64,000 bases of DNA. It comes from Streptomyces amritsarensis. Its GTDB lineage: Bacteria > Actinomycetota > Actinomycetes > Streptomycetales > Streptomycetaceae. The notes under the pieces are model-generated. The model made no database searches. It was not told where the DNA came from and saw only the letters and a program-made list of their open reading frames with translations. The stretch covers positions 27,935 through 91,934 of the forward strand of contig NZ_MQUR01000006.1 in NCBI RefSeq assembly GCF_001953875.1, written 5' to 3'. Below are positions 1 through 60,902 of the stretch, in pieces (the first letter of the stretch is position 1; the number at the start of each line of letters is the position of its first letter). A program made the position numbers and the translations under genes.

Positions 1-78
1 CCGGGCGGTGAAGAGCCGGAAGGCCTCTTCGGGCGGGAGCGGGACGGTGAGCGCGGCGCTCAGGACACGACGGTTCAT
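1..78 (-). CDS. SRPBCC-family protein, N-terminal fragment
   Basis: Only the first 26 codons lie in the window; the gene continues beyond position 1. The N-terminus reads MNRRVLSAALTVPLPPEEAF, which resembles the first beta strand and helix of START/SRPBCC (polyketide cyclase or Aha1-like) proteins, where a charged residue follows PPEE-type turns. Its ATG overlaps the TGA of the preceding small gene (ATGA), so the two are almost certainly translated from one mRNA. The family assignment rests on very little sequence; SRPBCC genes are often paired with a small regulator, which fits the context. Confidence 0.6.
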   Translation of the reverse strand, partial: MNRRVLSAALTVPLPPEEAFRLFTAR

Positions 79-317
79 CTCTCCTCCAGGGCGTGGGCGT
101 CGGCGGCGGTCAACTCCAGCCCGTAGACGTCCTTGAGCTGCTCGATGTTGGCCAGGGTCTCCGCCGAGAAGGGGGCTTTGCCGTCGAAGGCGTGCAGGAC
201 GATCCCCTCGACGAGCTCGCCGAGAGGCATGTCGAGGTACTCGGCCAGCGCCTTGAGCACTTTCAGCAGATTCCGTTCGATCCGCAGCCCGGTCTGAGTC
301 CGCTCAATCGTTACCAT
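75..317 (-). CDS. Small putative regulator (ribbon-helix-helix-like), 80 aa
   Basis: An 80-residue soluble protein with no signal peptide. It opens with a short strand-like stretch (MVTIERTQTGLRIERNLLKV) followed by two predicted helices and an acidic C-terminal helix, a layout compatible with a ribbon-helix-helix DNA-binding fold, but no family motif is certain. It is the first gene of a two-gene unit with the SRPBCC gene, joined by an ATGA overlap. An inverted repeat GTTACC-AA-GGTAAC sits immediately upstream of its start codon, and GGTAAC recurs across the start, which suggests autoregulation or a very short leader. The function is inferred from this arrangement only. Confidence 0.7.
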   Translation of the reverse strand: MVTIERTQTGLRIERNLLKVLKALAEYLDMPLGELVEGIVLHAFDGKAPFSAETLANIEQLKDVYGLELTAADAHALEER

Positions 318-46437: not shown

Positions 46438-49400
46438 TCAGCGCCCCGGGGGCGTCCCCGGTTCCGGGCCTTCCAGCGCTTCGCGGGTCCCGAGCCGGCG
46501 GAAGACCTCCTGCGCCTCCTGTTCGCACTCGCGTGCCGTTCCGGTCCGGCCCAGGGCCCGCGCGGCGCGGGCCAGGTCCCGCAGGGTGCGGGCACGCCAC
46601 AGCGGCAGTTGCAGCTTGTCCCACAGCCCGAGGGCCTGGCGCAGGGTCTCGGTCGCCGTCTCCCAGTCGGACGCGGCGAGATGCCATTCGCCGATGGTGC
46701 GCAGGACGAGGGCCTCGCCGAACATGTCCTGACGCTGGCGGGTGATGTCCAGACACCGCCGGAGCCGCTGCCAGGGTTCGGTCGACCGGCCCTGCCGGAA
46801 CTCGACCTTGGCCAGCGACACACTCGCGTACATGATGCCGTAGGCGTCGTCCGTCTCCTCGAAGATGCCGAGGGACTGCCGCAGCAGGGCCTCCGCACCC
46901 GCCAGATCACCCCGCGCCCGGTGGCACAGGCCCAGTGAGCGCAGCGCGAGTGCCTCGCCGTGCCGGTCCCGGGCGGTGACGTACAGGCCGTGGGCGCGGG
47001 AGAGTGCCTCCCACGCCTCGTCGTCGCGGCCCTGTTCCCGGTGGACGAACCCGATCCCGTACAGCACATGGGCCATGGACGAGATGTCCTCCGGCTCCCG
47101 GTACTGTTCGAGCGCCGAGGTCAGCAGGGGCAGCGCCTCGTCGAAACGGCCCTGCTCGCGGCGGGCGGCGCCCATGCCGGCCCGCGCGCCCGCGCAGCCG
47201 GTGCGTACGGACCGCTCCTCGAACAGCGGAAGCGCCAGGGCGAAGTACGCGTACGCCTCGTCGAAGCGGTCCTGCTCCAGGCGGAGTTGCCCCAGACCGT
47301 TCAGCAGCCAGGCCTCACCCTCGACGTCCCCGCCCCGCCGCACCGCCGCCAGGGCCGCGTCGTGGGAGCGGGACCATGCGTCGAACTGGTTGTACAGGGC
47401 CACGGAGGCGGCCATGAGGGTGGCGGCGAGTTCGCGGGCGGCGTCGAACATGCCGTGGTCCGCGCAGTGGATGACGGCGGCCAGCAGACACGGCTGCTCG
47501 GCGGCGAACCACGCGGCCGGCTCGTCCGTCAGGTGGGCCGGCGCCTGCGTCGGCGGGACCGGCTCGACCGGTGCCCGGGGCGGCCCGCCCGAGACCGCCG
47601 CCGATCCGTCCGCGCCGCCGTCCGATCCGTCCGCGCCCCCGTGCGACCCGTCCGTGCCCCTCCACGGCCCGCCCGCGGCGGCGACGGGGAGGAGCCGTGA
47701 CGCGCCGCCCGGGCCGTGGGCCGCCGCGATGCGGGCCATGTCCAGCCAGCGGTCGACCAGTCTGCGAACCGCCGTCTCCCGTTCCTGCCGCGTCTCGTCG
47801 GCCACGCAGCGCTCCCGGGCGTACTCGCGCGCCAGGTCATGGATCCGGTAGCGCGTCCTGCCCGTCTCGTCGGTGCCCACGACCTCCACGAAGTGGCAGT
47901 CCACGAGTTGTTCGACCGCGTCCTCGGCATCGTCCTCCCCCACGTCCAGGAGCGGTCCGGCGACCCATGCGGCGAAGTCGGGCAGATCCATCAGGGCCAG
48001 GCGGCGCAGGGCGCGCCGCTCCTGCTCGTCCAGGTCCGCGTAGCCCATGTGGAGGCTCGCGCGCACTTCCAGGTCACCGGCCTGCAGTTCGTCCAGCCGG
48101 CGGCGCTCGTCCCTCAGGCGCGCCACGAGGCGCGCCGGTGTCCAGTGGGGGCGGGCGGCGAGGCGGGCACCGGCGATGCGGACGGCGAGCGGCAGCCGGC
48201 CGCACAGTGCGACGATCTCGGCGGCCCGGTCGGGATCCAGCACGGGCCGGGTCGGACCGGCAACGCGGGCCAGCAGGTCCAGCGCCTCCGTTTCGGACGG
48301 CACCCCCAGATCGAGGTGGGCGGCGCCCTCCAGCGCGACGAGCCGGCGGCGGGCGGTGACCAGCACGGCCGAGCCGCCGCCCGGCGGGACCAGCGGGCGC
48401 AGCAGGGCCTCGCTGACAGCGTTGTCGAGGACGAGCAGGACCCGGCGGTGCGCGATGTGCGTGCGGTACAGCCCGAGGAGGTCCCCCTCGTCGCGTGCCG
48501 GGGTCTCCGTCTCCACCCCGAGGGCGCGCAGCAGTCTGGCCAGGGCGTCCGCGGTCCGTACCGGCTCGGAGTCCGAGGCGCGCAGGTCCAAGAAGAGTTG
48601 TCCGTCGGGGAAGAGCGCTGCGGTGCGGTGGCCCACGTGGACGGCCAGGGCGGTCTTGCCGGTGCCCGACCGGCCGGAGATCACCCCGATGGGCGGCGCG
48701 GTGCGCCTCGGGTCGCGTACCTCCTCCAGCAGGGCGGTCGCCCAGGCCGTCTGTTCGCTGCGGCCCACGAAGTCGGCTGCGTCGGGCGGGAGTTGGGTGG
48801 GCGCCGGCTGTGCGGCGCCTGCGTGGGACCGCTCGGCACGGCGGGCTGCCGGTGCGTCCTGGCCCGCGCGCGTGGGAGCCGCCGCCGGCGCGGGCGCGGT
48901 TCCCTTCCCGGCGGGCGCCCTTCGGGCAGCCGGCGCTCCCAGCACCGTCGTGTCCGCCCGGAGCAGGGCCTGGTGCAGCGCGCGCAGTTCCGGGCCGGGA
49001 TCCGTACCCAGTTCCGTACGGAGCAGCCGGCGGCCCTCCTCGTAGCAGCGCAGCGCGTCGGGCATCCGGCCGGTGCGGAACAGTGCGGTCATCAGCTGGC
49101 CGCGCGGGCGCTCCCGGAGGGGATGGGCGGCGACATGGGCGACGAGTTCGGATACGAGATCCGTGCGACGGTCCAGGTCCAGTTCGGCTGCGAAGCGGAA
49201 CTCCTGTGCCTCCAGCCGGAGTTCCCTCAGGCGCATGGCCTCCACCCGGGCGAAGGACTGCCCGAGCCCCTCCAGTGCGTCCCGGCCGCGCCACAGGCGC
49301 GACGCCCCTTGCAGGATCTCGACGGCTTCCTCGGCGCGCCCGCCGACGGCCGCCTTCCGGCCGGCCGCGCACGCCTTCTCGAAGCACCGGGCGTCCACGG

Positions 49401-49716
49401 CGGAGGGCGGGAACTCGGCGACATAGCCCGGGGTGCGGGTGCGGATGGCCTCCGCGCCCTCCGTACCGGCCAGGGCCCGGCGCAGTCCGGAGACGTGTGA
49501 CGCGACGACCCCCCGCGCGGTGGCGGGCGGCTCCTCCTCCCAGACCAGATCGACCAGCCGCTCGACGGACAGCACCTCACCGAGATGCACGACGAGCGCC
49601 GCGAGGATCGCGGTGGGTTTGGCGCCCTTCAGCGCGATCCGGTGCCCCCCGCTCCACACCTCGACCGGACCCAGAAGGCAAACGTCCACCGCGTCCCCCG
49701 ATTTCACGTTCCGCAT
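46438..49716 (-). CDS. AfsR-like regulator (SARP/BTAD, NB-ARC, TPR)
   Basis: About 1092 aa. Residues 8-95 are an OmpR-like winged helix (VDVCLLGPVEVWSGGHRIAL, then VVASHVSGLRRAL), followed by the bacterial transcriptional activator domain to about residue 240, a Pro/Ala-rich linker, an NB-ARC ATPase with P-loop GVISGRSGTGKTALA near residue 350 and LLVLDNAVSEALL, then winged-helix and TPR repeats (DRFDEAYAYFALALPLF, GRFDEALPLLTSAL). Such STAND regulators activate cell-wall or secondary-metabolism genes on sensing a ligand or kinase. It diverges from the D,D-dipeptidase gene. The start at 49716 is not firmly fixed. Confidence 0.9.
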   Translation of the reverse strand: MRNVKSGDAVDVCLLGPVEVWSGGHRIALKGAKPTAILAALVVHLGEVLSVERLVDLVWEEEPPATARGVVASHVSGLRRALAGTEGAEAIRTRTPGYVAEFPPSAVDARCFEKACAAGRKAAVGGRAEEAVEILQGASRLWRGRDALEGLGQSFARVEAMRLRELRLEAQEFRFAAELDLDRRTDLVSELVAHVAAHPLRERPRGQLMTALFRTGRMPDALRCYEEGRRLLRTELGTDPGPELRALHQALLRADTTVLGAPAARRAPAGKGTAPAPAAAPTRAGQDAPAARRAERSHAGAAQPAPTQLPPDAADFVGRSEQTAWATALLEEVRDPRRTAPPIGVISGRSGTGKTALAVHVGHRTAALFPDGQLFLDLRASDSEPVRTADALARLLRALGVETETPARDEGDLLGLYRTHIAHRRVLLVLDNAVSEALLRPLVPPGGGSAVLVTARRRLVALEGAAHLDLGVPSETEALDLLARVAGPTRPVLDPDRAAEIVALCGRLPLAVRIAGARLAARPHWTPARLVARLRDERRRLDELQAGDLEVRASLHMGYADLDEQERRALRRLALMDLPDFAAWVAGPLLDVGEDDAEDAVEQLVDCHFVEVVGTDETGRTRYRIHDLAREYARERCVADETRQERETAVRRLVDRWLDMARIAAAHGPGGASRLLPVAAAGGPWRGTDGSHGGADGSDGGADGSAAVSGGPPRAPVEPVPPTQAPAHLTDEPAAWFAAEQPCLLAAVIHCADHGMFDAARELAATLMAASVALYNQFDAWSRSHDAALAAVRRGGDVEGEAWLLNGLGQLRLEQDRFDEAYAYFALALPLFEERSVRTGCAGARAGMGAARREQGRFDEALPLLTSALEQYREPEDISSMAHVLYGIGFVHREQGRDDEAWEALSRAHGLYVTARDRHGEALALRSLGLCHRARGDLAGAEALLRQSLGIFEETDDAYGIMYASVSLAKVEFRQGRSTEPWQRLRRCLDITRQRQDMFGEALVLRTIGEWHLAASDWETATETLRQALGLWDKLQLPLWRARTLRDLARAARALGRTGTARECEQEAQEVFRRLGTREALEGPEPGTPPGR

Positions 49717-49843
49717 CCGGGGACAACGTGTCGGCCCCCACTGTGCTTTACGTCCGCCACCGGACTCCGGTTTCACGGACGGCCGATGTGGCGCACGGGT
49801 GACCGAAACCCATCAGGTCCGACGATGCGGGTGGCCCGTTCCC

Positions 49844-49890
49844 GGCGTTGCAAGGGTCTTGCAGAGGATCTGCATCGATCCTGCAACGCC
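49844..49890. promoter_or_regulatory. Nested TTGCA inverted repeats between AfsR-like and VanX-like genes
   Basis: GGCGTTGCAAGG (49844-49855) is the near-complement of CCTGCAACGCC (49880-49890). Between them lie further elements: CTTGCAGAGG, TGCAGA-N3-TCTGCA and GGATC-N6-GATCC. The TTGC(A/G)-type motif recurs four times in 47 bp. The block ends 12 bp before the dipeptidase start and faces the divergent regulator, so it is a likely operator for that regulator. Assigned by pattern and position only. Confidence 0.55.
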
Positions 49891-49902
49891 CGCCTCGACG
49901 CT

Positions 49903-50574
49903 GTGAGCGTGACGGACATCATCCTCCTCTCGGACCCCCGGGTCGCGGCCACGCGTGTCACCGACAACGGTGAACCGCTGGTCGACGCCCGGGAGGTCGC
50001 CGCACTGCGGGTCGACCCGCGCAAGACCGACCACGACGGCTCGTACGCGCATCTGCGGGCCGACGTGCTGCGCCGGCTCCTGCTCGCACAGGAGGCGCTG
50101 CCGCGGGGCATCCGCCTGCTGATGGTGGAGGGCTTCCGGCCGCCCGCCCTGCAGCGCCGCTACTTCGACGAGTACGCGGCGACGCTGCGCGCGGCGCATC
50201 CGGACGCCGGACCGGACCGGATCCGCGAGCTGGCCAGCGCGTACATCTCGCCCCCGGAGGTCGCCCCGCACGTCAGCGGCGGTGCGGTGGACCTGACGCT
50301 GTGCACCGACGACGGCGCCGAACTGCCTCTCGGTACGGAGGTCAACGCCACTCCCGAGGAGAGCGGGGGCGGCTGCCGCACCGCCGCGCCCCACGTCGAC
50401 GCCGGCGCCCGTGCCCACCGGGCGGCGATGGGCCGCGCCATGACGGCCGCCGGGTTCGTCAACTACCCGACGGAGTGGTGGCACTGGTCGTACGGGGACC
50501 GGTACTGGGCGCTCCTGACCGACGCTCCGACGGCCAAGTACGGGCCCGCCTCCCTGAGCCCGACCACAGACTGA
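49903..50574 (+). CDS. VanX-like D-alanyl-D-alanine dipeptidase (M15D)
   Basis: About 223 aa. Zinc and catalytic motifs are VEGFRPPALQRRYF (GYRP-like), HVSGGAVDLTLC (H-x6-D zinc ligands) and TEWWHWSYGDRYW (EWWH), the full VanX-type set. It cleaves D-Ala-D-Ala, relevant to peptidoglycan precursor turnover and vancomycin-type resistance. No VanH/VanA partners are nearby, so a recycling role is more likely. GTG at 49903 or 49909 is possible, and an upstream ATG at 49825 is less likely. It opens the rightward cell-wall gene set. Confidence 0.88.
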   Translation: MSVTDIILLSDPRVAATRVTDNGEPLVDAREVAALRVDPRKTDHDGSYAHLRADVLRRLLLAQEALPRGIRLLMVEGFRPPALQRRYFDEYAATLRAAHPDAGPDRIRELASAYISPPEVAPHVSGGAVDLTLCTDDGAELPLGTEVNATPEESGGGCRTAAPHVDAGARAHRAAMGRAMTAAGFVNYPTEWWHWSYGDRYWALLTDAPTAKYGPASLSPTTD

Positions 50575-50599
50575 GACAGCCGGACCCCGGGGGAACACC

Positions 50600-51178
50600 G
50601 TGGAGATCACCCGCATCGCGACGCCGACCACGTCGCCCGAGACCTCCGAGACCACGACGGAGCACGCCGCGAGCACGACGGCAGCCGACGACCGCATGAC
50701 CACCGCCGAGTTCGACGAGGCGTTCACCGCCGTGATGCCGAGACTGCGGCGCCGGCTGGTGGCCCTGACCGGCAATCCGCACGACGCCGACGACCTGCTG
50801 CAGGAGACGTACCTGAAGCTCTCCCGCCGGGCACGCGCCCACACCCTGACGCGTCAGCAGCAGCCCTACGCCTACACCTGCGCGGCGGCGCTCAACCTGC
50901 TGCGCGATCTGTGGCGGCACCCCTCGCGCCGGGAGCGCTGCACCGACCGGCTGCCGGAACGCGGCTGGGACGGCGGCTTCGCCGGCAGGGAGGCCGAGGC
51001 GGTGACGGCCGCGCTGCTGCGCGGCCTGTCCCCCAAGGAGGCGGCGGCCGTGATCCTGGTCGACATCGAGGGCCTGACCCACGACATGGCGGGGGAACGG
51101 CTCGGCGCACACCGCGGCACGGTGCAGCGCAACCGGATGCGCGGCCACGCCAAGATCCGCGCGGCGCTCGCCCCATAG
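50600..51178 (+). CDS. ECF-type RNA polymerase sigma factor
   Basis: A 192-aa sigma factor. Region 2 has FDEAFTAVMPRLRRRLVALT and DADDLLQETYLKL; region 4 has LSPKEAAAVILVDIEGLTHD but ends with RGTVQRNRMRGHAKIRAAL, where canonical ECFs show GTVKSRLxRAR. The first 30 residues are Thr/Ala-rich and variable. GTG at 50600 follows GGGGGAACACC. It sits between the D,D-dipeptidase and the four SH3-module proteins, 24 bp after the former, and probably governs some of them. No anti-sigma gene was found. Confidence 0.82.
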   Translation: MEITRIATPTTSPETSETTTEHAASTTAADDRMTTAEFDEAFTAVMPRLRRRLVALTGNPHDADDLLQETYLKLSRRARAHTLTRQQQPYAYTCAAALNLLRDLWRHPSRRERCTDRLPERGWDGGFAGREAEAVTAALLRGLSPKEAAAVILVDIEGLTHDMAGERLGAHRGTVQRNRMRGHAKIRAALAP

Positions 51179-51200
51179 GCGCCGGCAGCCGCCGACCCGC

Positions 51201-51244
51201 ACTGCACTGCACAGCACAGCACAGCACAGCACAGCACCTGTGCA
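51201..51244. repeat. Pentanucleotide tandem repeat (ACWGC)7 within an inverted repeat
   Basis: Seven consecutive 5-bp units (actgc twice, then acagc five times, 51201-51235) lie between the sigma factor stop and the NlpC/P60 start. The flanks TGCACAG (51208-51214) and CTGTGCA (51238-51244) are complementary. Repeat number could vary and change promoter or leader spacing. Confidence 0.8.
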
Positions 51245-51272
51245 CATCGCACCGACCACCCGAGGGGGAACC

Positions 51273-52148
51273 ATGCACCGCGCCAACCGCACACTCGCGA
51301 CGGCGGGAGGACTGCTGCTCGCCACCGCGCTGGCCTGTACCGGTACGGCGGTGGCCGCCTCGTCGCCGCTGTCCTCGGCGGCGGCGGCCGCGGCCGCCTG
51401 CCGGCCCCTGGCGGACGCGCCCGCCCAGGCGCAGGCGATCGTCAACGCCGCGTGCTCACAGATCGGGGTGCCGTACTCATGGGGCGGTGGTTCCCTCCAC
51501 GGGCCGACATACGGCCAGGACTATCCCGGCGGCGGCCCCGGCGCCCACGACAGCCAGGTGAAGGGCTTCGACTGCTCGCACCTGGTGCAGTACGCGGCCT
51601 GGCAGGGGGCGGGCATCGCCCTGCCCGAGGGGACGTGGAACCAGGCCCGGTGGAGCGGGGCCACCGCCCGGTTCACCCGCGCGCAGGGCACCGCCCCGTT
51701 GCAGCCGGGCGATCTGCTGCTGTGGGGGTCGGACCCGGCCAACCTCGGCAGCGTGCACCACATCGCCGTGTATCTCGGCAACGGCAGGATGGTCGAGGCA
51801 CGGGAGTCGGGGACGCTCGTGATGGTCAGCGACGTACGGCTGAACTCCCAGTACGCGGGCGCCCTGCGGATCGCCGGCACGGGGCAGCCGCCCGCGGACA
51901 CCAAGCGGTTCATGACCTGGGGCACCGATGTGAGCCTGCGTCCCGAGCCCGGCACCCGGCGGCCTCCCGTGGGCCGGTTGCCCGGCCCCACGGCCGTGGA
52001 CGTGCTGTGCCAGGTACGCGGGGAGATGGTCACCGCCGAGGGCTACTCCAACGACGCCTGGTCGTACCTGCCCCAGTACAAGGCCTGGATCTCGAACATC
52101 TACATCGACGACCCGGCGGCCTGGCTGCCCGGCGTGCCCACCTGCTGA
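51273..52148 (+). CDS. Secreted NlpC/P60 endopeptidase with C-terminal SH3-like module
   Basis: A 291-aa secreted protein. A signal peptide covers residues 1-29. The NlpC/P60 domain (about 45-205) has the catalytic Cys in VKGFDCSHLVQYAAW and His in SVHHIAVYLGNGRMVEA; it should cleave peptidoglycan stem peptides. Residues 210-291 form an SH3-like module: FMTWGTDVSLRPEP, VDVLCQVRGEMVTAEGYSND and a tail SNIYIDDPAAWLPGVPTC with terminal Cys. The same module recurs in the next three proteins. ATG at 51273 has GAGGGGGAACC upstream, and the pentamer repeat lies in its leader. Confidence 0.93.
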   Translation: MHRANRTLATAGGLLLATALACTGTAVAASSPLSSAAAAAAACRPLADAPAQAQAIVNAACSQIGVPYSWGGGSLHGPTYGQDYPGGGPGAHDSQVKGFDCSHLVQYAAWQGAGIALPEGTWNQARWSGATARFTRAQGTAPLQPGDLLLWGSDPANLGSVHHIAVYLGNGRMVEARESGTLVMVSDVRLNSQYAGALRIAGTGQPPADTKRFMTWGTDVSLRPEPGTRRPPVGRLPGPTAVDVLCQVRGEMVTAEGYSNDAWSYLPQYKAWISNIYIDDPAAWLPGVPTC

Positions 52149-52206
52149 CCCCCCACCTCCCCCATCCGCCTTATCGCCCTATATCACCCACAGAGGAGAC
52201 TCCGCC

Positions 52207-52980
52207 ATGCGCGCACTCAAGCGCACCACGTCCATCGGCATGCTCGTCGCCACGGTCGCCGCGGCCGGGCTGGTCCCGCTCGCGGCCGGCCAGGCGTCCG
52301 CCGCCCCGCCCGCCAAGGCCGCCGGCTACGCCGGTTCCTGCCCGACGGCCGGCACGGTGACCCAGGGGTGGCACTCCGGCCACGACGGCGTCGACATCGC
52401 CAACAACCGCGGTACGCCGATCCACTCCACCGGACCCGGCACCGTCATCGTCTCCGGCACCGCCAGCGGCTACGGCCAGTGGATCCGCATCAAGCACGAC
52501 GACGGCACCGTCACCGAGTACGGCCACATGTACGAGCGTCTCGTCTCCGTGAACCAGCGGGTGAGCAGCGGTCAGCTGATCGCGCGCATGGGGTCCGAGG
52601 GCCAGTCCACAGGGCCGCACCTGCACTTCGAGGCGCACGCCTCCACGGCCAGCACCCGAGGCATGGACCCCGTCGCCTATCTGGCCCAGCGCGGTGTGAG
52701 CCTGCCGTGCACCCCGGGCAGCGGAACGCCCGGTACGAACTTCACCACCTGGGGCACCTCGGTCCGGGTGCGCGCCGACGCCCGCCTCAACGCGGCGGTC
52801 GTGCGCACGCTGACGGGGCCGACGCCGGTGTACGTGCAGTGCCAGAAGCGCGGGGACTCGGTCACCGCCGAGGGCCACACCAACGACGCCTGGTCCTACA
52901 TCCCGGCGCTCGGCGGCTACGTCTCCAACATCTACATCGACCACCCCGCCGCCTGGCTGCCGGGGGTGGGTACGTGCTGA
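52207..52980 (+). CDS. Secreted M23 endopeptidase with C-terminal SH3-like module
   Basis: A 257-aa secreted protein. The signal peptide ends near QASAAPP (residue 32). The M23 LytM domain has zinc ligands in GWHSGHDGVDIANN and TGPHLHFEAHAS. The C-terminal 80 residues are the shared module: FTTWGTSVRVRADARLN, VYVQCQKRGDSVTAEGHTND and SNIYIDHPAAWLPGVGTC, nearly identical in ends to the NlpC/P60 protein. It should cut peptidoglycan crosslinks. AGAGGAGACTCCGCC precedes the ATG. The stop overlaps the next gene start. Confidence 0.93.
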   Translation: MRALKRTTSIGMLVATVAAAGLVPLAAGQASAAPPAKAAGYAGSCPTAGTVTQGWHSGHDGVDIANNRGTPIHSTGPGTVIVSGTASGYGQWIRIKHDDGTVTEYGHMYERLVSVNQRVSSGQLIARMGSEGQSTGPHLHFEAHASTASTRGMDPVAYLAQRGVSLPCTPGSGTPGTNFTTWGTSVRVRADARLNAAVVRTLTGPTPVYVQCQKRGDSVTAEGHTNDAWSYIPALGGYVSNIYIDHPAAWLPGVGTC

Positions 52981-53381
52981 CCGCCGCCCGCACCGGTACG
53001 AAGGGCGCCGCGGCGGCGGTCCTGGCCGCCGGGCTGCTCCTCTCCCCCGGCTTCACCTCGTCCGCGCGGGCCGCGGACTCGGCGCCCTGCACCCCCGACC
53101 GGAACTATCCGGGCACGTTCCTCTGCCGGATCTGGGGCTCGAACGTCAATCTGCGGTCCGCCCCCGATCCGCACGCCCCGGTCTCCGCCACGTCGCCCGC
53201 CGGGGGCGTCCTCAGGGTGCAGTGCCAGGTCAGGGGCGGCCGCGCGACCTACGGCGACTACTGGCACACCTGGTGGGTCAAGACCCCGGCGGTGGGCATG
53301 GCCAAGTCCGCGTACATGAGCGAGATCTTCCTCGTCGGAGGCGGCAACGACGAGCCCGACTCGGGTCTGCCGAACTGCTGA
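52974..53381 (+). CDS. Secreted stand-alone SH3-like module protein, 135 aa
   Basis: A 135-aa protein that overlaps the M23 stop codon (GTGCTGA), so it is translationally coupled. A signal peptide is followed by only one module: RIWGSNVNLRSAPDPHAPVS, LRVQCQVRGGRATYGDYWHT and a final GLPNC. It has no catalytic domain and may act as a wall-binding, competitor or immunity-type partner of the enzymes. The terminal cysteine and CQ-x-RG motif are conserved with the neighbours. Confidence 0.88.
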   Translation: MLTAARTGTKGAAAAVLAAGLLLSPGFTSSARAADSAPCTPDRNYPGTFLCRIWGSNVNLRSAPDPHAPVSATSPAGGVLRVQCQVRGGRATYGDYWHTWWVKTPAVGMAKSAYMSEIFLVGGGNDEPDSGLPNC

Positions 53382-53400
53382 ACGACGCCCCGTACCGACC

Positions 53401-53437
53401 GGATGCCCCCGGGGCCGCGCCAGGCCCGGGGGCATCC
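53401..53437 (+). terminator. Hairpin after the SH3-module protein gene
   Basis: A 13-bp perfect stem (GGATGCCCCCGGG at 53401-53413, complement at 53425-53437) separates the first three module genes from the serine hydrolase gene, which therefore likely has its own promoter. Confidence 0.75.
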
Positions 53438-53524
53438 GGCGCTCCGGCTCCCGTTCCAGGGCTCTCGTATCCCTTACGGCGCCGCGCCACCTCCACATCC
53501 CTCTCCACCGATCCCGAGGACCCC

Positions 53525-54706
53525 ATGATGATCTCGAGCAGCGTGCGGAGCGCGGTGCGGGCGGGCGGGCTGACCGCCGCCCTCGCCGCGCTCCTGTGCA
53601 CCACCGCGACCACCGTCTCCGTCGCCGCCGCCGAGCCCCCGTCGGCGCGCACGGCGGCGGTCCGAGCCGACGTGCCTGCCGGGGTGACGGCGGGCGTCGC
53701 CGTCTTCGACCGCCGGACCGGCACCTTCACCGAACAGCTGAACACCGCCGCACAGTTCAGGTCCGCGTCGGTGGTGAAGCTGCTGATCGCCCTGGACGTG
53801 CTCTGGAACCGCAGCCCCGACGCCCTGTCGGCCGCCGACCGGGCCCGGATCGACACCATGCTGCGGGGCAGCGACGACGCGGCCGCCAGCACCTTCTGGT
53901 CGAACAACGGCTCGGGGGCGATCGTCGACCGGATGGTCGCCCGGCTCGGCCTGACGGACACCGCCCGGCCGCCGTCCACCCACCCCGGCTACTGGGGCTA
54001 CACGGCCCTCTCCGCCCGCGACACCGTGAAGATCTACCGCCATCTGCTGGACTCCGCCCCGGCCGCGACCCGCGACTACCTCCTCGGCGGCCTGCGGCAG
54101 TCCACCCGCTGCGCCACCGACGGCTACGACCAGCATTTCGGCATCGCCGGCTCCTTCAACCAGCCCTGGGCCGTCAAGCAGGGCTGGTCGGGCTTCAGTT
54201 CGGGCGGCTGCACGGCACCGACCACGAAGGCCGCCGAGGCCGCGGGGTCCGGGGAGGCCGGGGAGTCCTTGGGCACCGCCGGGGCCGTGGACCTCTCCCG
54301 TCCCGCACTGCACACCACGGGCGTGGTGGGCGCGGGCGACCGTTCCATCGTGGCGGTCTTCACCCTGCACCCCGGTGGAACGTCCTACGGCAAGGCCTAC
54401 ACCGACATCGGGCGGCTGACCCGTTCGCTGAACGTCCCCGGCGCCTCCCGCCCCGCCGGTACGTGGATCGGCACCTGGGGCAGCGGGGTCCGGGTCCGCA
54501 CCCAGGCCACGACCGCCTCCGGTGCGGTCACCACACTGCCGGCCGGGGTCGAGGTCCTGGTCGGCTGCCAGAAGCGCGGTCAGCAGGTCAGCCAACCGCC
54601 CTACGCGGGCGACTGGTGGGCGCACCTGCCGCAGTACGGCGGCTACATGACCAACATCTACCTCAGCGTGCCGGAGAACCAGGTGCCCGGAGTGCCGGTC
54701 TGCTGA
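53525..54706 (+). CDS. Secreted class A beta-lactamase-like serine hydrolase with C-terminal SH3-like module
   Basis: A 393-aa secreted protein. The penicillin-binding fold has the catalytic SxxK in FRSASVVKLLIALDVL near residue 80 and WSNNGSG in the SxN position; the KTG triad box appears as VKQGWSG, so the third residue deviates. It may be a D,D-peptidase or esterase rather than a true beta-lactamase. The final 85 residues are the shared module: GTWGSGVRVRTQATTASGAV, VLVGCQKRGQQV, MTNIYLSVPENQVPGVPVC. ATG at 53525 has GAGGACCCC upstream. Confidence 0.88.
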   Translation: MMISSSVRSAVRAGGLTAALAALLCTTATTVSVAAAEPPSARTAAVRADVPAGVTAGVAVFDRRTGTFTEQLNTAAQFRSASVVKLLIALDVLWNRSPDALSAADRARIDTMLRGSDDAAASTFWSNNGSGAIVDRMVARLGLTDTARPPSTHPGYWGYTALSARDTVKIYRHLLDSAPAATRDYLLGGLRQSTRCATDGYDQHFGIAGSFNQPWAVKQGWSGFSSGGCTAPTTKAAEAAGSGEAGESLGTAGAVDLSRPALHTTGVVGAGDRSIVAVFTLHPGGTSYGKAYTDIGRLTRSLNVPGASRPAGTWIGTWGSGVRVRTQATTASGAVTTLPAGVEVLVGCQKRGQQVSQPPYAGDWWAHLPQYGGYMTNIYLSVPENQVPGVPVC

Positions 54707-59301: not shown

Positions 59302-59435
59302 GATCCGGCCCGGCCCGGCGCACCATTGGGCCACTCGGGTGACGGGGCATAACCCCGGGCACCGTCGGCAGTTGATCAGCGCGTCCCGCCGTGGGCAGCC
59401 ATCACATGCGACAGTGCGACCGAAGGATCCCCCAG

Positions 59436-59849
59436 ATGCTCAAGAAGTTCATGGCCACCGCCGCCGCCACCGCCGCCATGCTCGGCGCGGGCGCAGCCGC
59501 CGCCTCGCCCGCGATGGCGATCGGCAACGACAACGGCGTCAACACCGTGAACGGCAACGACTCGGCGCAGATCTACGGCAACGCGGAGACCCGCGGCAAC
59601 CAGAGCCCGCAGCTCGCCCCGATCCAGGGCTCCCTCAACAAGCTCTGCGTCGGCCTGCCCGCCAAGGTCAACGCCCAGTCCCTGCTGGCGGTCATCGCCA
59701 ACGTGGGCGTCCAGGACGTCAACGTCCTGTCCAACCCGCAGAACCAGCAGTGCGCCGAGAACTCCACCCAGGCCAAGGGTGACGAGGCCCTCTCGCACAT
59801 CGCCAGCAACATCCCGGTCCTCTCCGGCAACCTCTCCGCCGGCAGCTGA
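59436..59849 (+). CDS. rdlA: Rodlin (RdlA/RdlB-like spore surface protein)
   Basis: A 137-aa secreted protein. The signal peptide (MLKKFMATAAATAAMLGAGA, cleaved near AMA-IGN) is followed by the conserved rodlin core: NTVNGNDSAQIYGN, QLAPIQGSLNKLCVGLPAKV, NPQNQQCAENSTQAKGDEAL. Two cysteines can form the usual disulphide. Rodlins organise chaplin fibrils into the rodlet layer of aerial hyphae and spores. AAGGATCCCCCAG precedes the ATG. Only one rodlin gene is present here, whereas S. coelicolor has a divergent pair, rdlA and rdlB. Confidence 0.92.
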   Translation: MLKKFMATAAATAAMLGAGAAAASPAMAIGNDNGVNTVNGNDSAQIYGNAETRGNQSPQLAPIQGSLNKLCVGLPAKVNAQSLLAVIANVGVQDVNVLSNPQNQQCAENSTQAKGDEALSHIASNIPVLSGNLSAGS

Positions 59850-59990: not shown

Positions 59991-60902
59991 GTGATACGTG
60001 CGCTTCGCCGCCGCGCTCTCGGCCTCGTCGCCGCTGCGGCCGTCACGGCCGGCCTCGCCATCGCCCTTCCGTCCTCCCCCGCCTCGGCGGCGGCCCCCTG
60101 CGCCTCGCCCTGGGCCTCGTCCGCGGTCTACACGAACGGCATGAGCGCCTCGTACGGCGGTCGCAACTGGCAGGCCAAGTGGTGGACCCAGGGCGAGACC
60201 CCCGGCACCACCGGCCAGTGGGGCGTCTGGGCGGACCAGGGCGTCTGCGGCGGGGGCGGGCAGGATCCGGACCCCGATCCGTCCGGATTCGTCGTCTCCG
60301 AGGCCCAGTTCAACCAGATGTTCCCGAACCGCAATCCCTTCTACACCTACAACGGCCTGGTCGCCGCGCTGTCCGCCTACCCCGGCTTCGCCAGGACCGG
60401 CGACGACACGGTGAAGCGCCGCGAGGCCGCCGCCTTCCTCGCGAACGTCTCCCACGAGACCGGCGGTCTCGTGCACATCGTGGAGCAGAACACCGCCAAC
60501 TACCCCCACTACTGCGACGCGACCCAGCCGTACGGCTGTCCCGCAGGACAGGCCGCCTACTACGGCCGCGGGCCCATCCAGCTCAGCTGGAACTTCAACT
60601 ACAAGGCGGCCGGCGACGCGCTCGGCATCAACCTCCTGGCCAACCCCTACCTCGTGGAGCAGGATCCGGCCGTCGCCATGAAGACGGCACTGTGGTACTG
60701 GAACACCCAGAACGGTCCGGGCACCATGACCGCCCACGCCGCCATGGTGAACGGCGCCGGCTTCGGCGAGACCATCCGCTCCATCAACGGCGCCCTGGAG
60801 TGCAACGGCGGCAACCCCGCCCAGGTCCAGAGCCGGATCTCGAAGTACCAGAGCTTCACCCAGCTGCTGGGCGTCACGCCGGGCGGCAACCTGAGCTGCT
60901 GA
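59991..60902 (+). CDS. GH19 chitinase with N-terminal chitin-binding module
   Basis: A 303-aa secreted enzyme. A signal peptide covers residues 1-34 (cleavage near SASA-AAP); residues 36-86 are a CBM5/12-type chitin-binding module (ASYGGRNWQAKWWTQGETPG, WGVWADQG); a Gly/Asp-rich linker precedes the GH19 domain (about 98-303) with NVSHETGG and YYGRGPIQLSWNFNY carrying the catalytic glutamates. It degrades chitin and fungal walls. GTG at 59991 follows GAAGGAG at 7 bp. Promoter repeats of DasR type lie 60-90 bp upstream. Confidence 0.94.
   Translation: MIRALRRRALGLVAAAAVTAGLAIALPSSPASAAAPCASPWASSAVYTNGMSASYGGRNWQAKWWTQGETPGTTGQWGVWADQGVCGGGGQDPDPDPSGFVVSEAQFNQMFPNRNPFYTYNGLVAALSAYPGFARTGDDTVKRREAAAFLANVSHETGGLVHIVEQNTANYPHYCDATQPYGCPAGQAAYYGRGPIQLSWNFNYKAAGDALGINLLANPYLVEQDPAVAMKTALWYWNTQNGPGTMTAHAAMVNGAGFGETIRSINGALECNGGNPAQVQSRISKYQSFTQLLGVTPGGNLSC

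Follow-up and report, generated by a model that had tools for sequence, protein, structure and literature searches.

A predicted AfsR-like SARP and ECF sigma factor circuit beside secreted SH3-like module proteins in a conserved Streptomyces gene cluster

Streptomyces antibiotic regulatory proteins (SARPs) are best known for switching antibiotic clusters, and their large form, as in AfsR of Streptomyces coelicolor, combines an OmpR-type DNA-binding domain and BTAD with NOD and TPR parts. VanX enzymes are D-Ala-D-Ala dipeptidases of the M15 family, and we take DdpX to be a further D-Ala-D-Ala dipeptidase. Here we describe a locus in which relatives of AfsR and VanX accompany predicted secreted proteins that share an SH3-like module. 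It lies in a 64,000-nt stretch of Streptomyces amritsarensis (contig NZ_MQUR01000006.1, positions 27,935 to 91,934 of the forward strand; own genome 7.8 Mb), hereafter the window. Genes for a VanX-like protein, an extracytoplasmic function (ECF) sigma factor, an NlpC/P60 protein, an M23 protein, a module-only protein and a serine hydrolase follow one another on the + strand, with the AfsR-like gene on the - strand (Table 1); Pfam and the AfsR structures bear out the upstream VanX-like and sigma genes and the opposing AfsR-like gene of the initial annotation. We read the locus, with a probability of about 0.6, as a conserved Streptomyces cluster of predicted secreted, likely wall-directed SH3-module proteins under a predicted positive loop of the AfsR-like SARP and the ECF sigma factor. 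New here are two predicted promoter codes that would tie the regulators to each other and to secreted proteins. No description of the cluster was found in the open-licence literature, judged partly from titles and the beginnings of abstracts, and ECF with VanX and hydrolase, SARP with ECF and hydrolases, and GsmA each gave no match there.

The AfsR-like protein contains all parts of the large SARP form in the same domain order as AfsR of S. coelicolor, and is alike in sequence (best E 1.6e-108 against the AfsR structures 8k60, 8jke and 8hvr; E 2.9e-36 for its SARP domain against 8hvr), the match to AfsR continuing beyond the SARP domain. The ECF sigma gene comprises sigma regions 2 and 4 only (Pfam). 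Pfam also matches the NlpC/P60 (NLPC_P60, E 1.2e-14), M23 (Peptidase_M23, E 3.8e-30) and VanX-like (M15, E 2.4e-13) proteins and, barely above the cut-off of 22 bits, the serine hydrolase (Beta-lactamase2, 22.4 bits); the module-only protein has no Pfam match above threshold. By eye, the three module enzymes keep what we take to be the usual catalytic motifs.

To place the block in the genus, 392 Streptomyces genomes were searched with the module profile and for sigma orthologs; the best 14 candidates per genome were scored for the module and the best 8 for the sigma factor, so that copy numbers are lower bounds. A sigma ortholog is present in 24 genomes, below which the best E-value falls from 4.2e-74 to 2.9e-32, and all 24 carry VanX-like and NlpC-module genes. 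Among the 23 loci fetched from them (L074-L096, own locus excluded), 23 have the VanX-like gene (split in L082 and short in L096), 23 the NlpC-module gene and 22 the AfsR-like gene, the exception being a 3.6 kb contig. A second scan gave 53 loci (L114-L166), all from Streptomyces, and removal by hand of 16 from the same contig or strain left 60 non-redundant loci, which still include near twins (e.g., L081 and L133) and do not include the window. In these, AfsR was found in 56, VanX in 57 (not seen in L135, at a contig end, L140 and L158), NlpC in 56 (not seen in L122, L123, L140 and L164, the last at a contig end), M23 in 16 and the serine hydrolase in 14; a close ortholog of the module-only protein occurs in 7, and 46 weaker module-only copies are spread over 17 loci. 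Two layouts can be distinguished: type A resembles the window, and type B has an NlpC protein with two modules, no M23 and no serine hydrolase. The sigma tree contains a type A branch of 21 rows (99/89), a type B branch of 35 rows (97/83) and a third branch of 5. All 13 loci with a divergent AfsR gene, the window included, fall in one 14-row branch (96/89), whose remaining row, L135, shows no AfsR gene; this fits a single inversion of AfsR that the neighbourhood survived. The block is a conserved unit of Streptomyces.

NlpC loci without M23 carry a strong GC hairpin directly after the sigma stop codon, between sigma and NlpC (L080-L096, L124, L133, L138-L166). Thirty-six of the 38 folded 63-nt stretches reach -26.6 kcal/mol or lower, and 28 of 38 have an apex like CCCACGGGGGTG; in the 16 loci with M23 the corresponding stretch gives -3.3 to -28.3 kcal/mol. 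A terminator, an attenuator and a binding site are candidates for its role. In the window, the space between sigma and NlpC holds short CAGCA repeats (51199-51243) which by eye are not kept in relatives.

The four copies of the module, each of about 78 residues, align over 88 columns, of which 15 are invariant and include W, G, V, R, the cysteine of CQ and the terminal cysteine; the other copies share 58, 35 and 41% identity with the first. The four consecutive predicted secreted proteins with one SH3-like module and its two cysteines thus stand as initially annotated. Pfam SH3_3 appears below threshold only. In the own genome, a four-row profile finds five places above 90 bits, namely the four builders and, independently of them, an NlpC/P60 gene of contig C128 (92.9 bits). 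Two weaker module-only genes lie at C170:25572-26340, about 1.6-2.4 kb before the first base of the window; a wider profile of weak and strong copies finds no further module copy in the window. Across the genus the profile matches 190 of the 392 genomes at E 1e-8, and in sigma-less clusters the module is joined to M23, serine hydrolase, amidase-like and other secreted domains (the last names being our reading of the sequences). Because of this distribution, the module is a shared Streptomyces part, and the idea that it is unique to this cluster is rejected. The initial annotation had let its system idea depend on a module that is not common and on a conserved gene order: the order is conserved, whereas the module is common and also occurs without the sigma factor. 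Among 205 unique modules from L074-L166, all 157 strong copies and 45 of the 48 weak ones have both cysteines, one within the CQ region and the other within the tail, by a positional window test rather than a column test. For the module-only protein, 29 proteins were found, and every one with an organism name is from Streptomyces.

Foldseek with the AlphaFold model of the module-only protein gave no match under E 0.001, and a second structural look (VIA) placed fungal SH3-like domains on top (range 51..135 on 1..72). Judged from sequence and model, the nearest solved relatives of the module are fungal SH3-like cell wall-binding domains (CWBDs), and that of Penicillium virgatum (8b2g; PMC10394673) resembles it in sequence and fold. 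By alignment the CQ and tail cysteines occupy the positions of the fungal Cys33-Cys72 disulphide, so that a bond is predicted in the module. The second disulphide, Cys9-Cys53, which the accessible part of PMC10394673 says is present in all fungal-type examples its authors identified, is absent from the four window modules, where the positions are L/V and G/A; the module is therefore a relative, not a member, of the fungal-type CWBD, and unlike it is bacterial and C-terminal. The same part of that source reports homologous domains with amidase, C40, M23, GH24 and GH73 partners, and three folds built on one wall-targeting domain, as had been proposed for this locus, are right and thus not new in kind. 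GsmA, a sporangiospore wall hydrolase (NCBIfam NF038016), gives a weak match to all four proteins, at or close to their SH3 part, but scores 25.1 bits or less where the cut-off is 240.

The first promoter code lies before vanX. Three TGCAG-type units with an 11-bp period are found there in 57/57 loci and in the window, and in all 57 their position is constant, at -32 or -33 of the aligned frame. On a 15-base repeat score, 38 loci match 15/15, 12 match 14/15 and 7 match 13/15; the window repeats match 13/15 and a fourth unit is additional. Downstream, a -10-like box is followed by a conserved GTG so closely that a leader would not fit; in the window, GTG 49909 (or 49903) is the most probable vanX start, rather than a position near 49717. 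Three TGCA at 11-bp spacing with zero mismatch occur in the own genome only before vanX, and a search away from vanX in L074-L096 returned two 12/15 matches and no second target. SARP promoters are described, in the accessible parts of PMC10936776 and PMC5930380, as having repeats 11 or 22 bp apart with the last 8 bp from the -10, and the last window repeat is 8 or 9 bp from the -10, by where the heptamer is drawn. Because this published layout is found here and the neighbouring gene encodes a SARP, the repeats are predicted to be a SARP operator, which would drive a leaderless vanX-sigma transcript. The layout is as described for SARPs and afsS; the differences from AfsR of S. coelicolor are the TGCAG-type repeat and the predicted target, vanX-sigma instead of afsS.

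The second code emerged from a de novo dyad search in 148 de-duplicated upstream regions with three Markov controls, in which gene starts came from a simple script score and are not mapped starts. The dyad CATA-18-CGTC occurs in 31 of 148 regions, compared with 15-17 for the best of any dyad in the controls, and in 22 of 43 module-only gene upstreams (at most 7 in controls); when strong-module promoters were searched by themselves, no dyad exceeded the controls, and the module-only genes supplied the signal. In its exact form, TCATACG-N15-CCGTC, the motif has 71 sites in 49 of the 60 loci (1.09 Mb), as against one site with spacer 16 and none with spacers 11-14 or 17-19 or in reversed and complement controls. 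With one mismatch there are 119 sites at spacer 15 vs 2-21 at other spacers. Among them, 46 precede AfsR, 23 module ORFs, 12 NlpC and 6 the serine hydrolase, which leaves 32 unassigned. At this tolerance the motif precedes AfsR in 46/56 loci, NlpC in 12 of the 16 loci with M23 and the serine hydrolase in 6/14, and it also stands upstream of module-only genes; L074 keeps it at its serine hydrolase and module-only genes. Several of these 32 are found in front of additional small, SH3-like secreted proteins, of a type B lipoprotein that is divergent from AfsR and of a single I36-like protein; others are likely chance. By our own tally, an exact site is present in 24/24 sigma-bearing genomes vs 164/368 sigma-less ones. 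We predict that TCATACG-N15-CCGTC is an ECF-type promoter, provisionally assigned to the sigma factor of the block by neighbourhood. With the conserved order AfsR-like/VanX-like/sigma/NlpC-module and the two codes in relatives, the proposed dedicated system under its own control gains support as a prediction, and more strongly than could be seen in the initial annotation.

Several observations weigh against such a loop. The scores of the VanX-like protein and the serine hydrolase are modest. At the first code, allowing one mismatch in the own genome brings in two more TGCA places, with no fewer in a reversed control, and the 15-base score reaches 12 by chance (7 matches in 10 Markov loci), so the case for an operator rests on fixed place and conservation. 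At the second code, NlpC genes without M23 carry the motif in 0/40 loci (35 of type B, 4 of the third branch and L135), most of which have the strong hairpin after sigma, and 8/14 serine hydrolase genes are without it. The exact sites in sigma-less genomes clearly outnumber those of the reversed control, and not all sites of sigma-bearing genomes share a contig with the sigma locus, the sole one in genome G247 being on another; the motif is thus not exclusive. In the window, the upstream regions of AfsR, NlpC and the serine hydrolase lack it, with 4-5 of 12 positions wrong at best, and the close relatives L114 and L123 are also without it within the stretch seen. The four window upstream stretches tested show 3-5 mismatches at best, the 3 being before sigma and inside vanX, and none of seven 2-mismatch places in the window is just upstream of the block genes discussed. 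The loop may hence be decayed or differently wired in the window strain.

Much of this could also be explained by an ordinary autolysin cluster lying by chance beside a regulator pair, with the ECF motif belonging to another, commoner sigma factor. Besides the exact motif in sigma-less genomes, where near-identical sites that may be coding sequence or another promoter recur (L167-L170, L172), and its absence before NlpC without M23, the module is found in 190/392 genomes, many without the sigma of the block, and sigma-less clusters of module proteins exist. However, 17 module loci without sigma in the stretch (at least 4 from sigma-bearing genomes) contain a single exact site between them, that of the own genome, vs 71 in the 60 sigma loci, and sites lie beside the sigma locus in at least 11 sigma-bearing genomes among the matches listed. 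Of the exact sites of the own genome, one (C170:25335) precedes the module-only pair that lies outside the window; the second falls in what reads as rnpA coding sequence, and this also speaks against the chance neighbourhood. We consider that explanation unlikely.

Three observations concern other genes near the motif. A lipoprotein-like ORF of about 300 residues is divergent from AfsR in type B (L133:4461-5447, L124:2424-3314, L153:4602-5534 (-)), has no Pfam match and is preceded by a near-match of the sigma motif with GGCGTC at the -10. A predicted secreted family of about 127 residues (FYVSLQ...GGNVNIG) has the motif upstream (L118:12538-12918, L078 near 5680, L079 near 4757, L075 near 7371), and one member scanned gave no Pfam match. 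An I36-inhibitor-like small protein (sub-threshold Pfam) at L119:14314-14694 has an exact motif upstream.

From gene order, motif positions and conservation, we infer the following binding, activation and enzymatic steps for the loop. A signal felt by the NB-ARC/TPR part of the SARP would lead it to bind the 11-bp repeats, and by analogy with AfsR it would start the leaderless vanX-sigma transcript together with the housekeeping sigma factor. The ECF sigma factor would likely transcribe the SARP gene and the genes of the secreted SH3 proteins from TCATACG-N15-CCGTC promoters. Since sigma would transcribe the SARP gene and the SARP would switch on sigma, each would keep the other on and the switch would stay locked. 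Once outside, the enzymes are likely docked on peptidoglycan peptides by their modules; within the cell, the VanX-like enzyme, in which no signal peptide is seen by eye, would remove D-Ala-D-Ala and slow the making of new cross-linkable wall, while the enzymes would cut old wall. Of this loop, the window strain shows just the first half, namely the operator; because no sigma promoter precedes AfsR, NlpC or the serine hydrolase there, NlpC, M23 and the module-only gene are likely read through from the vanX promoter. A self-directed wall switch is the most likely function predicted for the block. A further-reaching version, bistable wall demolition in which SARP and ECF sigma factor lock on, VanX destroys internal D-Ala-D-Ala and thereby blocks cross-linking of new wall, the module-bearing enzymes take apart the old wall and swarms of module-only SH3 proteins coat and shield selected parts of it, is speculative and rather doubtful. 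An attack system, in which the enzymes would lyse neighbours and module-only proteins would cover the wall of the producer as immunity, could account for predicted secreted enzymes with co-controlled module-only proteins (46 weak copies in 17/60 loci), and, according to PMC10394673, competing staphylococci are the targets of lysostaphin-type SH3b enzymes. Nevertheless, VanX has no evident part in attack and nothing in the present data points to a foreign target, and we hold this possibility improbable.

The VanX-like enzyme might instead mark a locus of glycopeptide resistance or producer immunity. In the alignment with VanX (1r44), GFRP, H-x6-D and EWWH are aligned, and the positions that we take to be the Zn ligands and the catalytic Glu and Arg are kept; the protein also matches the M15 family. 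However, it scores 32.7 bits on the curated VanX model NF033115 (cut-off 320), and a single D-Ala-D-Ala ligase match of the own genome is strong (226.8 bits), whereas the other five reach at most 43.9, so that no VanA-type ligase is apparent (VanH was not searched for). Its coupling to a sigma gene is a further difference from VanX dipeptidases. A resistance locus is disfavoured by the low score and the lack of an apparent ligase, and is very improbable. If the predicted wall switch is true, a VanX-type enzyme would gain a role apart from resistance. Promoter sequence kept in tens of loci here predicts that a SARP controls a sigma factor encoded next to wall-enzyme genes and is in turn controlled by it; the second code marks many small SH3-like proteins and would give them a first common context. 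Both codes are short and exact, and the circuit is therefore directly testable.

Table 1. Features of the locus, in window coordinates
Feature	Position	Strand	Basis
AfsR-like large SARP regulator	46438..49776	-	Pfam Trans_reg_C, BTAD, NB-ARC, TPR; AfsR structures
Predicted SARP operator, four TGCA-centred direct repeats, 11-bp period	49848..49887 (units 49848, 49859, 49870, 49881)	+	
-10-like GACGCT, predicted leaderless vanX promoter	49897..49902	+	Read from sequence; largely kept in alignments of relatives; putative function
VanX-like (M15) dipeptidase	49909..50574	+	Pfam PF01427; match to VanX 1r44
ECF sigma factor	50600..51178	+	Sigma70_r2 and r4_2; 24-member ortholog alignment
Predicted secreted NlpC/P60 endopeptidase with C-terminal module	51273..52148	+	PF00877
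SH3-like module, NlpC/P60 protein	51912..52145 (own genome C170:79846-80079)	+	Module profile search
Predicted secreted M23 endopeptidase with C-terminal module	52207..52980	+	PF01551
SH3-like module, M23 protein	52744..52977	+	Module profile search
Module-only predicted secreted protein, overlapping M23 stop	52974..53381	+	29 proteins found; AlphaFold model
SH3-like module, module-only protein	53127..53378	+	
Possible terminator, a GC-rich inverted repeat lying between the module-only gene and that of the serine hydrolase	53401..53437	+	Read from sequence
Predicted secreted serine hydrolase (Beta-lactamase2-like) with C-terminal module	53525..54706	+	PF13354, 22.4 bits
SH3-like module, serine hydrolase	54473..54703	+	Module profile search

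Farther along the window are two ORFs which, from their sequences, we take to encode a rodlin-like protein (59391-59849) and a GH19 chitinase-like protein (59991-60902).

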